Shown here: positions 2,145 to 16,822 of the stretch, piece by piece
Layout of the letters: each line of letters starts with the position of its first letter
Numbering within the stretch: the first letter of the stretch is position 1
Source: a virus
DNA length: 37,563 nucleotides
Strand: one strand, 5' to 3'
Virus record (IMG/VR): IMGVR_UViG_3300043823_000113
Span: 1-37,563 of that record
Program-made: the position numbers and the translations under genes
Notes under the pieces: generated by a model
What the model was told of the DNA's origin: nothing
Databases searched by the model: none
What the model saw: only the letters and a program-made list of their open reading frames with translations

Positions 2145-4379
2145 GTGACTACACTTGACGGAAATTTTCATATTGCTGAAAGACCTGTTGATCCAATTGG
2201 CCAACCGTCTAACTCTGGCGCTACTTGGGTTAATACCAGTATCCAGTATGACGTTGCCATTGCTGGCATACCGTTTTTCTTGGCTGTAAGTAAAGAACAT
2301 CCTTACACCAGAGAAACGGCTCAATACCGCAAGCAACAGATTGATCAGCAAAAAGAACCAGGTGAACAAACACTAACTGGTTGGTGGCTACGTAGCCAAT
2401 CATCTTTTCATTATGGCGCTGGCATTAGATATGAAGAACCAGTTGAAGGCGATACAGTATCTTACCGATTCAACAAGTCCGCTGGTGTAGATGTATTTAA
2501 CATTGGTCGAGTTACCTTGTTACCAGATGTTACTGCTAACTCATCTGTAACTGTAGGCTCTGGCGTATCACCGATTCTAGTTGGTGGCACAGATACTAAC
2601 GGTGTTGATTTGTACCTAACAGCAGTTGGCTCTACGCTAACTCGTACAACCGCAGCTGGTGTAACCACAACCTTAACTTGGGGCGGAACTGGCACAATCA
2701 TTTCAGTTGCCCAAGACGGCGCTAACTATTATGTTCTAAATGCTACAGGTATTTACAAAGGCCCATTAACAGGTGCAACTAACGGAACATTGTTATTTAC
2801 TAATCCAACAATGGTTGGTACTGTAACTAGCGGTGTATTAGGTTGGGTTAAGCAACGCCTTATTGCTGGCATTAACAACTATGTATTTGAAGTTGACCCA
2901 GTTGTATCTTATAGCGTAACCAGCAAAATGGTTGATGGATCATATAACGCCACACTAACTACATCATCTGCCCATAACTTTGTTGTTGGCGATGAAATTA
3001 CAGTAGCCAGCGTTGACTCTACTTTCAACGGTACACAAACCATAACAGCAGTTGCTAACTCAACTAGCTTAACATATTTTCTAAATACCGCTGCTGTCGC
3101 TTATCAAACAACTTCCGCAGGTACAGTTGCTTTAGCGAGCAATAATAATTTGCCTATCTATGCTAATCCAAATCCAGCCTGGCAATGGACTGCCATCTGT
3201 GAAGGACCAAACAATATCTACATCTCAGGCAATGCGGGTACTTATTCCAGTATCTTCCGCTTAGCATTAGATACAACCACAGGTCAAATTCCATTACTTA
3301 TCCGTTCACTTGAAGCGGCAATTATGCCAGCTGGTGAACAGATTTATACTCTTGGTGCATACCTTGGCAAGTACATTGTCATTGGTTCTAACAAGGGCAT
3401 AAGAATCGGAACGATTGATACTTCAGGCTTTGTGTCTAATGGTTATATTACTTATGGTCCTTTGATTGTAATTACCAATGGCTATGATCCTGCAAGCGCA
3501 ACTGTATTAAATGGCTTGCCTTGTCGTAGCCTTGTCTTTAATGACCGTTATGCTTATGTTACTTGCTCAGATTATATTGATAATGGCGATGGTACATATT
3601 CATCAGGCTTAATTAAAATTGACCTAAGCCGAGACTTTGGAACATTGCAAATGGGTTGGGCTACACACTTGCGTGTACCTTCAACAGCAGAAGCAACTAG
3701 CGTATGTGTCATGGGACAAACCAATCAATTAGTTATTGGTGTTAAAGGTACAGGCATATATCAACAAGCAAATACTCTTGTCTCATCTGGCTATATCCAA
3801 ACAGGACAGATTCGCTACTTCACACTTGAAGATAAGCACTTTGAATTAGCCAAACTAAGAGTTACTTCACCACTACAAGGCAAGTTAAAACTTACTGTAG
3901 TTAATGCAGATAGTACAACTGCTGACATTATCACCGTTGATAATTCATTTGATTTTACCCAAGATATTACAGGAATGGATACTCAAGACATTGAACCGAA
4001 AGAAAGTATTGCTCTTCGTTTTACTCTTTACTCTGCTACTGGCCAGCTTGTGGGTCAAGAAGACTCGTTCAACGGCTACCAATTAAAAGCATTACCTGCT
4101 GTCAAAAGAGAAAGAATGCTAACTCTCCCACTTGAGAATTTTGATTTTAATGGTGACAGATTCAACATGTCCGAAGGATATGACGGACGTGCTGCTGAAT
4201 ATCTAGCAACATTAGAAGAGATTGAGTCTGAAGGAGATGTAATTATCCTACAAGACTTTATCAATAATGAATCTGTTAGAGGTGTTATTGATTCAATCAA
4301 GTTCATTGGGCAAACTCCACCAGAGAGAAGATTTAATAACTTTGGCGGAATTATTGAAGTGCAGTTTAGGACAGTATAG
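2145..4379 (+). CDS. Large tail protein (probable beta-propeller-type minor tail or fibre protein)
   Basis: This 744-residue protein starts at GTG behind an AAGGGG ribosome-binding site. The N-terminal region, with RPVDPIGQP and the stretch AQYRKQQIDQQKEPGEQTLTG, resembles a tail protein family I recall from actinophages. Residues roughly 130-540 contain repeated beta-strand units of the type YYVLNATGIYKG and YIVIGSNKGIRIG, suggesting a propeller or repeat fold. The C-terminal 200 residues look like a beta-sandwich with a FDFNGDRFN segment. No protease or lyase motif was recognised. A virion structural role is likely. Confidence 0.75.
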   Translation: MTTLDGNFHIAERPVDPIGQPSNSGATWVNTSIQYDVAIAGIPFFLAVSKEHPYTRETAQYRKQQIDQQKEPGEQTLTGWWLRSQSSFHYGAGIRYEEPVEGDTVSYRFNKSAGVDVFNIGRVTLLPDVTANSSVTVGSGVSPILVGGTDTNGVDLYLTAVGSTLTRTTAAGVTTTLTWGGTGTIISVAQDGANYYVLNATGIYKGPLTGATNGTLLFTNPTMVGTVTSGVLGWVKQRLIAGINNYVFEVDPVVSYSVTSKMVDGSYNATLTTSSAHNFVVGDEITVASVDSTFNGTQTITAVANSTSLTYFLNTAAVAYQTTSAGTVALASNNNLPIYANPNPAWQWTAICEGPNNIYISGNAGTYSSIFRLALDTTTGQIPLLIRSLEAAIMPAGEQIYTLGAYLGKYIVIGSNKGIRIGTIDTSGFVSNGYITYGPLIVITNGYDPASATVLNGLPCRSLVFNDRYAYVTCSDYIDNGDGTYSSGLIKIDLSRDFGTLQMGWATHLRVPSTAEATSVCVMGQTNQLVIGVKGTGIYQQANTLVSSGYIQTGQIRYFTLEDKHFELAKLRVTSPLQGKLKLTVVNADSTTADIITVDNSFDFTQDITGMDTQDIEPKESIALRFTLYSATGQLVGQEDSFNGYQLKALPAVKRERMLTLPLENFDFNGDRFNMSEGYDGRAAEYLATLEEIESEGDVIILQDFINNESVRGVIDSIKFIGQTPPERRFNNFGGIIEVQFRTV

Positions 4380-4381
4380 CT

Positions 4382-4678
4382 ATGGTTAATCAAGTCAATC
4401 TTTGGACTATCATTTATTCAGTTGTATTTTCAGTAGGAGCCATAGGCTCTTTTTTTTGGGTCATTGTAAAGCGGATAGTCAACCATGTTATTGAAGAACA
4501 TATTGATCTAATGCGTGAAGAACTAGCGTCTTTTAATCGCAAGTTTGACCGAGTTGAATATGCGCTATATAACAATGGACAGACTGGCTTGATTAACAAA
4601 GTAGATGCTCTAATACAAAATCAACAGATTATTAAAACTGACGTGGAAGTGATGAAGGCTAAATATGAAAATCTCTAA
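4382..4678 (+). CDS. Small membrane protein with one TM helix and a coiled coil
   Basis: This 98-residue protein has a hydrophobic N-terminal helix (about residues 7-30, including IIYSVVFSVGAIGSFFWVIV). A charged helical stretch with a heptad-like pattern follows. It is the first gene of the lysis cassette and overlaps the next gene by 14 nt. A holin-accessory or spanin-like role is possible from position only. The family was not recognised with certainty. Confidence 0.65.
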   Translation: MVNQVNLWTIIYSVVFSVGAIGSFFWVIVKRIVNHVIEEHIDLMREELASFNRKFDRVEYALYNNGQTGLINKVDALIQNQQIIKTDVEVMKAKYENL

Positions 4679-5012
4679 GAAAAAATATATCCACCCCGAT
4701 ACTCAAGATGTATTAACCTTTTCTGAACTTATCTCTTGGAAAATCCAAGGAATAATCCGCAACTGGACATTTGTTATTATCTGGACAGTAGGTACTATTG
4801 TATGGTGGATTAAGCCACGTTGGTTTGGCGACACATCTGCTTATATCAAATGGATGAACTTAGCATCTTGGCTTGCAGTTACAGTTGAATTGATTATCGG
4901 TATTGCCATGATTGGGCAAACTAAGCGTGATGCAATGATCATCCGCCATATTCTTAAATTAGAAAAACAAGAAATTGAACATCTTGAAGAAATTATAGAA
5001 GGGGACAAATGA
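4665..5012 (+). CDS. Two-TM membrane protein, holin candidate
   Basis: This 115-residue protein has two predicted membrane helices, at about residues 35-52 (FVIIWTVGTIVWWI) and 67-86 (LASWLAVTVELIIGIAMIG). A basic N-terminus and an acidic helical C-terminus (KLEKQEIEHLEEIIEGDK) flank them. Two TM segments directly upstream of cell-wall hydrolases fit a holin. Its stop overlaps the ATG of the next gene (ATGA). Other small phage membrane proteins could look the same. Confidence 0.6.
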   Translation: MKISKKKYIHPDTQDVLTFSELISWKIQGIIRNWTFVIIWTVGTIVWWIKPRWFGDTSAYIKWMNLASWLAVTVELIIGIAMIGQTKRDAMIIRHILKLEKQEIEHLEEIIEGDK

Positions 5013-9814: not shown

Positions 9815-10172
9815 TCCGTCATATAGTCGCCGTAAAGGTGCATCATTTGAAACTGCCGTATTGAAATTACTTCGTGCTAAGAAGTTTGTAGCAGAACGTT
9901 TGCGCTTAGCAGGTAAAGATGATGAGGGCGACATAGTGTGTATGGTCGCTGGTCGTCCTTTCATCTTTGAATTAAAAGCAACAGCCAAGATGGATTTACC
10001 ACAGTTTTGGCGTGAAGCTACTACAGAAGCATTTAACTATGCAAAGGCAAGAGGTTTAGATGTAGCCCCACCTGCTTATGTAATTGTCAAGCGTCGCATG
10101 GCAAGCATTGAACAGGCTTGGGTAATACAGGACTTGAACCAATGGATCAGTCAGGCACAAAGTGCAGAATAA
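9807..10172 (+). CDS. Holliday-junction-resolvase-like PD-(D/E)XK nuclease
   Basis: This 121-residue protein matches the archaeal Hjc-like fold: RRKGASFETAVLKLL with Glu15, GKDDEGDIV with Asp42, and FIFELKATAK giving E55-x-K57. It should cut four-way junctions or branched DNA before packaging. It overlaps the helicase gene by 8 nt and the primase zinc-domain gene by 11 nt. Confidence 0.85.
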   Translation: MANPSYSRRKGASFETAVLKLLRAKKFVAERLRLAGKDDEGDIVCMVAGRPFIFELKATAKMDLPQFWREATTEAFNYAKARGLDVAPPAYVIVKRRMASIEQAWVIQDLNQWISQAQSAE

Positions 10173-10530
10173 GCCAGACATTACACCCGTCCTTGAACAT
10201 TATGGAATAAATGTAATTGACAAGCATGGGTGGGTGGCTTGCAAGTGTATCTTGCATGACGACACACACGCTAGTGCTGCATATAATTTAGATATGCAAC
10301 TGTACAATTGTCTTGTATGTCAGATACTAGGTGACTCTATTGAATTAGTAAAGCGCATGGAAAGGTTGGAATTTAAGGATGCTAAGCGAAAAGCAGAGAC
10401 AATCGCTCACGGAAGCAGCAGAAAAGTATTGCAACGCAATCACACCACAGGCTCAGTCTTACCTATCGGAACGAGGAATAACACAAGAAGTGGCAAGTAT
10501 GTTCCATCTTGGAAGCGTCGTGGAGCCTAG
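10162..10530 (+). CDS. Primase, CHC2 zinc-binding domain polypeptide
   Basis: GTG start, 122 residues. Residues 25-55 form a CHC2-type zinc finger (Cys27/Cys29, His32, Cys50, Cys53: CKCILHDD and YNCLVC), used by DnaG-type primases for template recognition. The helix IELVKRMERLEFKDAKRKAET follows as in primases. After about residue 78 the sequence turns basic and low in family character, and the TOPRIM domain continues in the +1 frame from 10379. The real product may be a frameshift fusion or may act with the TOPRIM polypeptide in trans. Confidence 0.8.
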   Translation: MQNKPDITPVLEHYGINVIDKHGWVACKCILHDDTHASAAYNLDMQLYNCLVCQILGDSIELVKRMERLEFKDAKRKAETIAHGSSRKVLQRNHTTGSVLPIGTRNNTRSGKYVPSWKRRGA

Positions 10531-11017
10531 TGCTGGACATGAACATTCAGTTGGTAGATTATCAATCCCATACCGTACACCAGCTGGTGTGGTTGGATTA
10601 AAGTTTAGAGCAGTTGATAATGAAACAACTCCTAAGTATTTGTATCCTACTGGTCAGAAGGTTGGCCTTTACAATGTTAATGATCTGCATCGCATTTCTG
10701 ACACTATTGCCATTTGTGAAGGTGAAATTGACACGATTATTTTATCAGGTGTGGTTGGTGTACCTGCTGTTGGAGTTGCGGGGGTTGGGCAATGGAAATT
10801 ACATTTCCCAAAACTATTTGAATCGTATGCCAAAATTCTTGTTTTTGCAGATAATGATGTTAAAGAGGATGGACGCAATCCAGGCCAAGAGTTGGCGAAA
10901 AAAATTAAAGAGGATTTACAACAAGCAACGATAATTAACATGCCACCAAATTGTGATGTAAATGAAACTTATTTACAGTATGGAGTTGAGTGGTTCTACG
11001 AGAGGTTGGAAGCGTGA
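10379..11017 (+). CDS. Primase, TOPRIM catalytic domain polypeptide
   Basis: This 212-residue polypeptide lies in the +1 frame relative to the CHC2 gene, which it overlaps by 152 nt. It has a helical linker (TEAAEKYCNAITPQAQSYL), the RNA-polymerase-like basic segment IPYRTPAGVVGLKFRA, and the TOPRIM motifs ICEGEIDTI (Glu114) and LVFADNDV (Asp158, Asp160). This is the nucleotidyl-transfer core of DnaG primases. The internal ATG has only a weak ribosome-binding site, so ribosomal frameshifting from the upstream gene is a real alternative. The stop overlaps the dcm GTG start (GTGA). Confidence 0.85.
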   Translation: MLSEKQRQSLTEAAEKYCNAITPQAQSYLSERGITQEVASMFHLGSVVEPSAGHEHSVGRLSIPYRTPAGVVGLKFRAVDNETTPKYLYPTGQKVGLYNVNDLHRISDTIAICEGEIDTIILSGVVGVPAVGVAGVGQWKLHFPKLFESYAKILVFADNDVKEDGRNPGQELAKKIKEDLQQATIINMPPNCDVNETYLQYGVEWFYERLEA

Positions 11018-11634
11018 GTACATTTGTATCTTTGTTTGCTGGCGTTGGTGGTTTTGATCTTGGCTTAGAACAAGCAGGTCATACTTGTGTTGGGCAAGTG
11101 GAAATAGATAAACATGCACAAAAAATATTAAAAAAGCATTGGCCACATGTGCCTTTGCATGATGATGTAAGAACAGCAGTAGAATGGGCAGAAAGGGAAA
11201 ATTTAATTGGACGAGTGGACATTGTTTGCGGGGGCTTTCCCTGCCAAGACGTATCAGTTGCTGGCAAAAGAGCTGGAATTGCTGGGGCAAGAAGTGGATT
11301 ATTCTTCGACGCCATACAATTTGCAAAGCAAGTCAAAGCACAAACTATCATCTTGGAGAATGTGCCAGGACTTTTATCAAGCAACAACGGACGCGATTTT
11401 GGAGTCGTCATCTCTGAATTGGCCGACGCAGGGTATAGCCACATCGAGTGGCGCATTCTTGATTCGCAATTCTTCGGAGTGCCACAGCGACGCAGAAGAG
11501 TCTTCATTGTCGGAAGTTCTATTGACAGAAGCGGACAGCCGATACTTATTGACAGCCAAAGCAGCGGAAGGGGTGCTTCGCAGATCCAATCGAAATGGCA
11601 AAACTCTGCCAGAGCATTTGCAGAAAGCTCTTGA
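11014..11634 (+). CDS. dcm: DNA cytosine-C5 methyltransferase, N-terminal (catalytic) part
   Basis: The chosen start is GTG 11014, overlapping the primase stop; it gives 206 residues beginning at the SAM-binding motif I (FVSLFAGVGGFDLGLEQAG). Motif IV is GGFPCQDVSVAG with nucleophile Cys77, motif VI is ENVPGLLSS (Glu115), and motif VIII is QRRRRVFIVG (158-167). The frame stops before any target-recognition domain or motifs IX and X, which are encoded at 11637-12023 in another frame. From about 11200 on, the codons are unusually often C-ending (GTC, ATC, TTC, GCC, GAC), unlike neighbouring genes, consistent with the second gene read in the +1 frame here. Phage cytosine methylation usually protects DNA from host restriction. 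Confidence 0.9.
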   Translation: MSTFVSLFAGVGGFDLGLEQAGHTCVGQVEIDKHAQKILKKHWPHVPLHDDVRTAVEWAERENLIGRVDIVCGGFPCQDVSVAGKRAGIAGARSGLFFDAIQFAKQVKAQTIILENVPGLLSSNNGRDFGVVISELADAGYSHIEWRILDSQFFGVPQRRRRVFIVGSSIDRSGQPILIDSQSSGRGASQIQSKWQNSARAFAESS

Positions 11635-11671
11635 GCATGTGGTGGGTCAAGGGACGCAGGGCGCAGAATGA
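11207..11671 (+). CDS. Nested +1-frame protein inside dcm (phage family of unknown function)
   Basis: This 154-codon open frame lies in the +1 frame of dcm. Its TTG start has AAAGGG about 9 nt upstream. It contains FAGAFPAKTYQ (7-17), LSSWRMCQDF (47-56), SSLSEVLL and EGVLRRSNRNGKTLPEHLQKA. From memory, patterns such as FPAKT, SSWRxSQ and GILRRAxxRGKxLP define real phage proteins found beside or over dcm genes. FPAKT here is the shifted reading of the dcm FPCQD motif. This length without stops is unlikely by chance in AT-rich DNA. It could be overprinted, or part of a frameshifted methyltransferase product. No function is known to me. Confidence 0.55.
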   Translation: MDEWTLFAGAFPAKTYQLLAKELELLGQEVDYSSTPYNLQSKSKHKLSSWRMCQDFYQATTDAILESSSLNWPTQGIATSSGAFLIRNSSECHSDAEESSLSEVLLTEADSRYLLTAKAAEGVLRRSNRNGKTLPEHLQKALEHVVGQGTQGAE

Positions 11672-12023
11672 TAAAGACCATGAAACTTGGATTGAATATG
11701 GCATTTGCCCAACGCTTAATGCATTTGAGAATAATACAGAATCGAGGGCGACTGTGTTAGTTTTGTTTGAAGCAACACGCGTAGATGATGTACGCATACA
11801 TAATAATGTAAGTCCAACTGTTCCTACATATTGGGGAACTGGTGGAGCAAGAGTACCGTATTGGTCAACTAATCCTATTCGTCGCTTAACACCAGTTGAA
11901 TGTGAGCGTTTGCAAGGCTTCCCTGACAATTGGACAGAAGGCCAAGCTGACTCACATAGATATAAACAAATGGGAAATGCGGTTACGGTTAATGTAGCAA
12001 AATGGATAGGTTCAAGATTATGA
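11637..12023 (+). CDS. dcm: DNA cytosine-C5 methyltransferase, C-terminal (target recognition, motifs IX-X) part
   Basis: The chosen start is ATG 11637, three nt after the N-part stop, giving 128 residues; ATG 11595 would add 14 residues without family character. The segment contains motif IX (IRRLTPVECERLQGFPDNW, 81-99) and motif X (RYKQMGNAVTVNVAKWIG). A short target-recognition region precedes them (YGICPTLNAF, PTYWGTGGA). It lacks motifs I-VIII, which are on the separate upstream polypeptide in another frame. The same division occurs in two-subunit enzymes such as M.AquI. A -1 frameshift joining the parts is the alternative. Confidence 0.8.
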   Translation: MWWVKGRRAQNDKDHETWIEYGICPTLNAFENNTESRATVLVLFEATRVDDVRIHNNVSPTVPTYWGTGGARVPYWSTNPIRRLTPVECERLQGFPDNWTEGQADSHRYKQMGNAVTVNVAKWIGSRL

Positions 12024-12343
12024 AGCGACCTACAACTGTCAAGGTGCAGGGCATTAAGTATAAGATTAAGTATGATGAGCAATTAGAGGATGCTTATGGC
12101 ATCACCGATTCTGATACTAATACCATATCGCTTTGCCCTATGCCTGAAGATAAACTGATCCGCGTCTTTGTCCATGAGCTAACTCATGCCGTCATATTTG
12201 AAACTCCTATGTATTTACGCAAGAGATTTGACCTAGAGGAAGTATGCGATTTGGTTGGCTTACACTTCTTGGCTATGTTGCGGGACAATAAACATGTCCT
12301 GGAATATATTTTATCTGAGATGGATGAGGAACCAAATGAGTGA
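12020..12343 (+). CDS. Small HExxH zinc metallopeptidase-like protein
   Basis: Start ATG 12020 overlaps the dcm stop (ATGA), giving 107 residues. The motif VFVHELTHAVIFE (His52, Glu53, His56) is the zinc-binding helix of zincins, and the downstream helix with EEVCDLVGLHFL (Glu or His as third ligand) fits SprT/ImmA-like small phage metallopeptidases. It may cut a host protein or act on DNA-protein crosslinks. The substrate is unknown. Confidence 0.7.
   Translation: MKRPTTVKVQGIKYKIKYDEQLEDAYGITDSDTNTISLCPMPEDKLIRVFVHELTHAVIFETPMYLRKRFDLEEVCDLVGLHFLAMLRDNKHVLEYILSEMDEEPNE

Positions 12344-14408: not shown

Positions 14409-14412
<4 letters not shown>
13945..14412 (+). CDS. Putative PD-(D/E)XK-fold nuclease-like protein
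   Basis: The chosen start is TTG 13945 with GTAAGG at the right spacing, giving 155 residues; an upstream TTG at 13939 is also possible. A helix with Glu53 (GCLGEIAVARW) is followed by Asp75 in KDGDVGPFEVRTT, giving E80-x-R82, and a beta strand (RKYLLVTLP). This order of Glu, Asp and Glu-x-Lys/Arg fits a restriction-endonuclease-like fold. Similar proteins occur in phage replication modules. The specific function is unknown. Confidence 0.55.

Positions 14413-16822
<2,410 letters not shown>

Follow-up and report, generated by a model that had tools for sequence, protein, structure and literature searches.

A conserved gene nested in a split phage C5 DNA methyltransferase gene and its possible role as a third subunit

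The C5 DNA methyltransferase (MTase) gene of the phage contig analysed here (the window, a virus record of 37,563 bases) is divided between two polypeptides, alpha and gamma, and a third gene, beta, is nested in an alternate frame of the first half. Comparison with viral and bacterial loci indicates that the nested frame 2 is a real overlapping gene. It recurs across many bacterial hosts in prophages and in phages, among them P1, and has mostly been left unannotated. Alpha, beta and gamma probably form one C5 DNA methyltransferase made of three polypeptides from three frames, in which beta would serve as a stabilising or docking subunit. The locus is laid out as follows.

11014..11634, plus strand: alpha, C5-MTase N-half with motifs I, IV, VI and VIII (PF00145, phrog_116, TIGR00675)
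11192..11198, plus strand: Shine-Dalgarno-like AAAGGGA, 5' of the nested gene (duplex energy)
11207..11671, plus strand: beta, nested +1-frame gene of 154 codons (stop depletion, conservation, start and Shine-Dalgarno enrichment, phrog_16143)
11504..11644, plus strand: conserved C-terminal module of beta, residues ~100-146, a predicted two-helix hairpin
11637..12023, plus strand: gamma, C5-MTase C-half with a short variable region and motifs IX and X (PF00145, TIGR00675, dN/dS)

The genes 5' of the locus encode an exonuclease, a DnaB-like helicase, a RusA-like resolvase and a two-piece primase. Alpha starts at a GTG (11014) that overlaps the stop codon of the upstream primase part; it has 206 residues in frame 1 and ends at TGA 11632-11634. 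The primase likewise consists of two overlapping ORFs in different frames (10162-10530 and 10379-11017), a zinc-binding N part (phrog_360) and a Toprim part (phrog_849), and these parts are in different frames in every relative where both were found. On the other side, a putative small metallopeptidase (12002-12343; DUF6782-like, phrog_1233) overlaps the end of the gamma gene. Further along, a sigma-factor-like protein (14409-15026; phrog_354, E 6.2e-16) is encoded immediately 5' of a phage-encoded GroEL-like chaperonin (15026-16624; phrog_5725, E 1.6e-169).

The original prediction, made from the letters of the window, placed motifs I, IV, VI and VIII in frame 1 before a stop and motifs IX and X in frame 3 just after it. 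Profile searches recovered both parts. Alpha matches PF00145 over positions 2-165 (E 7.8e-54), TIGR00675 over positions 1-161 and phrog_116 (E 1.7e-67), and gamma matches PF00145 over positions 269-321 (E 1.1e-15) and TIGR00675 over positions 276-328. The C5-MTase motifs I, IV (PCQ), VI (ENV), VIII (QRRRR), IX and X thus follow in order over two polypeptides, with I-VIII on one chain and IX-X on a second chain from a separate gene, as in an M.AquI-type layout. Gamma starts in frame 3 at ATG 11637, two bases 3' of the alpha stop (TGA GC ATG), and this spacing suggests that its translation is coupled to that of alpha. A separate C-half ORF is present in 23 of the 26 informative non-redundant loci of the window's clade (loci with an N-half at least 58% identical), and its frame relative to alpha takes all three values (rel 0, 1, 2). 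Two independent contigs, L007 and L037 (N-half protein identity 79% and 82%), have the same three-frame layout and stop position as the window, and gamma of the window shows a dN/dS of 0.05-0.08 against them. The clade-wide separate C-half and this low ratio support the M.AquI-like split that had been proposed. Judged by these comparisons, the split is a feature of the clade and not an indel.

The prediction had also pointed to a frame 2 of 154 codons and to MTase codons ending unusually often in C where the frames overlap. Frame 2 is open from 11207 to 11668, with its stop at 11669-11671. In the window, C-ending codons make up 3% of frame 1 before the overlap and 30% within it; frame 3 past the overlap has 9%, and two other genes have 11-12%. 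Synonymous sites are suppressed in the overlap: identity at four-fold sites rises from 0.337 before the overlap to 0.654 within it in the close group, and pS of the MTase frame drops from 0.53-0.56 to 0.35-0.37 in the window against L007 and L037.

Because beta had served to pick loci L007-L036 and L134-L213, the main test of stop codons was restricted to 80 viral loci picked by frame 1 only (L037-L116; 64 non-redundant). The MTase protein was held fixed while synonymous codons were permuted from motif IV to motif VIII. Across the 64 loci, 7 stops were observed in the +1 frame against 105.9 expected, and the frame was fully open in 61 loci against 13.7 expected. The control frames behaved otherwise: the +2 frame of the same loci had 209 stops against 214.2 expected, and in the stretch before motif IV the +1 frame had 129 against 145.2. 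Ordinary chromosomal C5-MTases showed no depletion (135 stops in the +1 frame against 141.9 expected; n=23, from a search by regular expression that recognised just 24 of about 64 loci). The window alone has no +1 stop between motifs IV and VIII, where synonymous permutation gives 2.98 (P about 0.02). Openness by chance, through amino-acid or codon composition, was ruled out by the permutation together with the chromosomal controls.

The alternate-frame protein is also conserved where the DNA has diverged. In pairs with less than 50% MTase identity, whose synonymous sites are near saturation, +1 identity reaches 0.414 over residues 165-182, where the null gives 0.171 and the MTase frame itself 0.301; over residues 131-164 it is 0.357 against a null of 0.227. 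Over MTase residues 75-130, the N-terminal part of beta, diverged pairs are close to the null (0.246 vs 0.208 and 0.207 vs 0.211), and this part stays open despite so little conservation. Conservation of the +1 protein exceeds that of the MTase protein over the final third of the overlap. Over residues 173-200, position 1 of the MTase codons (position 3 of the +1 codons) is the most variable and position 3 is better conserved, a pattern that rules out nucleotide-level constraint. Alternate-frame conservation in diverged pairs and the inverted codon-position pattern both point to selection at the protein level. By this comparative evidence, selection acts on the +1 protein and most strongly on its C-terminal module.

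A start of its own is the further expectation for a gene. Beta of the window probably starts at TTG 11207, right after TAA 11204-11206. In close relatives AAAGGAG is followed by TAATTG, with the TTG abutting the upstream TAA stop of this frame; the AAAGGGA of the window is weaker, with a duplex energy of -5.3 against about -8.7. Other lineages start beta at ATG with strong Shine-Dalgarno sites. Over 71 loci the best combined Shine-Dalgarno and start score averages -5.16 (null -2.16), and a score of -5 or below is reached at 38 of the 71 where 10.4 are expected (1 against 3.5 in the +2 control). This enrichment makes independent initiation of beta likely, and beta is presumably translated in the cell. 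Stop depletion, alternate-frame conservation, inverted periodicity and start enrichment together bear out the nested gene that had been predicted.

The 53 aligned members of the beta family share the consensus LSxVLExxVxxRYxLSxKAAxGILRRAxxRGKxLPxxLxxALxxVA. This module is basic and helical, with L101, L115, G122, R126 and P135 invariant. For the homologue of locus L079, AlphaFold2 predicts helices at 122-135 and 141-155 (block-mean pLDDT 97-98 over residues 121-150), and its confidence is limited to this C-terminal part. The profile phrog_16143, labelled 'DNA methyltransferase', is matched by 51 of the 53 alternate-frame proteins (best E 9.5e-16); beta of the window matches it weakly (E 0.0022, residues 43-120). 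Beta had no match in Pfam or NCBIfam and nothing significant in PDB by sequence and fold searches. A viral fold search returned nothing at E up to 0.001, the best hit being a protein of Mycobacterium phage Thibault (1.8e-3), and a PADLOC search gave nothing of use.

With one beta family member as the tblastn query, 177 GenBank phage records were matched. Where frames were read out (P1, CobraSix, CP-T1, MM1, Drs3, MA12, Chantilly, TPDSL_ph1 and Dove), the module is read in a frame one base ahead of that of the MTase. The family also occurs in an archaeal virus. In bacterial genomes, a scan with a beta alignment of limited diversity confirmed 438 loci in many phyla; an open MTase frame was overlapped by the module in the +1 register in all 80 of those retained for the frame check, and no standalone copy of beta was present among these 80. 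Thibault gp104, considered as a separate beta gene, proved to be the tail of a broken locus. An HNH endonuclease gene is inserted there 3' of motif VIII (L125:1359-3160), the MTase is also frameshifted, and the surviving tail of the nested frame is annotated as gp104. Literature searches did not find an overlapping gene in phage dcm.

What connects beta with the methyltransferase is the content of the nested frame in some relatives. In loci L064, L070, L072, L076 and L103 the nested ORF extends past the GILRR module and carries motif IX, and motif X is in the MTase frame. Locus L107 divides IX and X likewise, although its nested ORF has another C-terminus. The +1 ORF of L033 extends through a variable region, IX and X, as a fusion to the C-half. 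In these lineages a complete enzyme requires translation of the nested frame. Most single-chain relatives carry beta although both IX and X stand in their MTase frame, so that beta is not needed there for motif IX. The +1 ORFs of some lineages, with motif IX or a fused C-half, lead us to read beta as an MTase subunit; this is the best reading of beta in general, and it would extend to the window, where beta ends before motif IX. The third subunit suggested by the original prediction is favoured to that degree. Two related observations concern the nested ORF. Across L032-L035 (about 3959-4717) it is in frame with the C-half, giving one beta-gamma ORF of 253 codons. A second type with another C-terminus occurs in L099, L104, L107, L109, L113, L115 and L116; most of these end motif-IX-like (WVEWLMGFP..WT in L107 and L113), with motif X in the MTase frame.

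Some relatives have more than one C-half. Two stand behind one alpha in L025 and L026, three in L050, L051, L283-L285 and L287, and five in L049 (2676-4550), L052 (4754-6839) and L278-L282; L288 has four, with no alpha (N-half) detected. An upstream C-half occurs in L014-L016; the array counts include it for L014, which has one C-half on each side of alpha. The array members of L052 average 30% identity in the part before motif IX and 67% in the IX-X part, and between orthologous members of L052 and L049 pN is far below pS. The arrays may be sets of exchangeable specificity subunits. The window has a single C-half and so, unlike a multispecific enzyme, does not combine several recognition domains with one catalytic domain.

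The pieces of this arrangement have precedents. Alpha of M.AquI (CYCGRG) holds motifs I-VIII, whereas IX-X are on the second polypeptide together with part of the variable region (PMC3404938). The window divides motifs I-VIII and IX-X in the same way; the difference is a third protein, conserved and nested in alpha, and relatives with two to five tandem C-half genes per alpha. In phage P1, the C5-type part of Dmt has the same ORF nested in its +1 frame, module included (codons 99-262), yet its MTase is unsplit at the point where that of the window divides, and the known activity of Dmt is DNA-adenine methylation (PMC12707154). Streptococcus phage MM1 has ORF14 annotated inside ORF13, in the same alternate frame as beta. 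Together with the phrog_16143 matches, this confirms the link, made in the original prediction, between the frame-2 motifs and phage proteins that accompany dcm. MM1 ORF14 and PHROG 16143 differ in bearing a 'methyltransferase' label on a frame without MTase motifs, and the MM1 module is shortened; the sources searched describe no overlap, selection or function for either.

M.EcoHK31I (YGGCCR) is completed by a second polypeptide, reportedly encoded within the alpha gene in another frame, and M.EaeI is similar. The window resembles M.EcoHK31I, compared here by its published description, in having a nested polypeptide in an alternate frame within the alpha gene, and relatives L064, L070, L072, L076, L103 and L107 resemble it in dividing IX and X between frames. 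In M.EcoHK31I, alpha carries I-VIII, X and the TRD, and beta carries IX (PMC3404938). The window does not place IX on the nested chain and X on alpha: its beta ends before IX and has a helical GILRR-type module, with IX and X on a third polypeptide. As for arrays, one catalytic domain serves several recognition domains in the multispecific phage C5-MTases of SPbeta, SPR and phi3T, as it would in the array relatives. These enzymes, for which PMC12707154 cites Trautner 1996, have their recognition domains in one chain; in the array relatives each is encoded by a separate gene that also supplies IX and X.

In the model that we favour, alpha would supply the AdoMet site and the catalytic Cys (motifs I-VIII), and gamma would supply the recognition region with IX and X and complete the enzyme in trans, in the manner of M.AquI. 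Beta, a small conserved protein with its own start in the +1 frame of alpha, would most likely bind the alpha-gamma enzyme as a stabilising or docking subunit, chiefly through the C-terminal two-helix module, in a role comparable to that of M.EcoHK31I beta. With up to five gamma genes behind one alpha-beta pair in relatives, one catalytic half could gain several specificities, presumably to shield phage DNA from several host restriction enzymes. The split, the selected +1 protein, the motif IX or C-half in the +1 ORF of some lineages and the tandem gammas have been established at the level of sequence; translation of beta in the cell, its binding to the alpha-gamma enzyme and the anti-restriction role are what we infer. 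A wider form of the model, which we hold only tentatively, would make beta a widespread overprinted third subunit and a docking hub through which one catalytic half takes up a changing set of separately encoded specificity halves, as many as five in tandem, in a C5 analogue of the HsdM/HsdS logic known from Type I systems.

Beta could instead be real and selected and yet do a separate job, for example in anti-restriction, in host takeover or as a DNA-binding regulator, and simply be carried in the MTase gene. This is unlikely, though it is the most serious competitor: most relatives have a complete one-frame MTase, so that beta is not obviously needed for catalysis there, and its conserved module is basic and helical. 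Against a separate job, the module overlaps an open MTase frame at every bacterial locus of the frame check and never stands alone there, several lineages have motif IX inside the beta ORF, and L033 has beta and the C-half as one fusion. A purely translational role is improbable. Ribosomes in the nested frame, or those that terminate at 11634 or 11671, would then fix the ratio of alpha to gamma through coupling or reinitiation, and the beta peptide would matter little. The two bases between alpha stop and gamma start, and a beta stop 32 bases beyond the gamma start, suit such a device; the conservation of the alternate-frame amino-acid sequence at less than 50% MTase identity does not, nor does the equal presence of beta where IX and X share the polypeptide of alpha and coupling is needless.

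Programmed frameshifting, which would join alpha to beta or gamma without separate initiation, is more doubtful still. The three frames overlap and a shift could join them, but separate starts with Shine-Dalgarno sites are enriched, and frameshifting could not serve a gamma whose frame varies (rel 0, 1, 2) or that is upstream (L014) or in several copies. Least probable of all is that sequencing indels broke a single-frame dcm and that the nested frame arose by chance, through codon use or a constraint on DNA or RNA. What speaks for this view is that the window, a viral contig from a metagenome, comes with no reads. The same layout is nevertheless found in diverged independent contigs, the C-half is under purifying selection, and stop depletion and the codon-position pattern are specific to the +1 frame, unlike nucleotide-level constraint. 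An indel artefact is excluded in practice because L007 and L037 share the three-frame layout and stop position, and sequencing error or a pseudogene was likewise ruled out by the shared layout in independent contigs with the dN/dS of the C-half.

What the original prediction observed holds throughout, and what it inferred is the favoured explanation. Beyond it, the nested gene is widespread and selected, also in P1, and the split enzyme can have C-half arrays. A selected overlapping gene thus sits within one of the commonest phage genes, usually unannotated or misnamed 'DNA methyltransferase', and its role could be tested in phage P1 through changes that are silent in the MTase. If beta is a subunit, it would generalise the odd single case of M.EcoHK31I and account for these methyltransferases keeping two frames. 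The C-half arrays, a possible tool, suggest a natural modular system of C5 methylation with which phages could counter several restriction enzymes.
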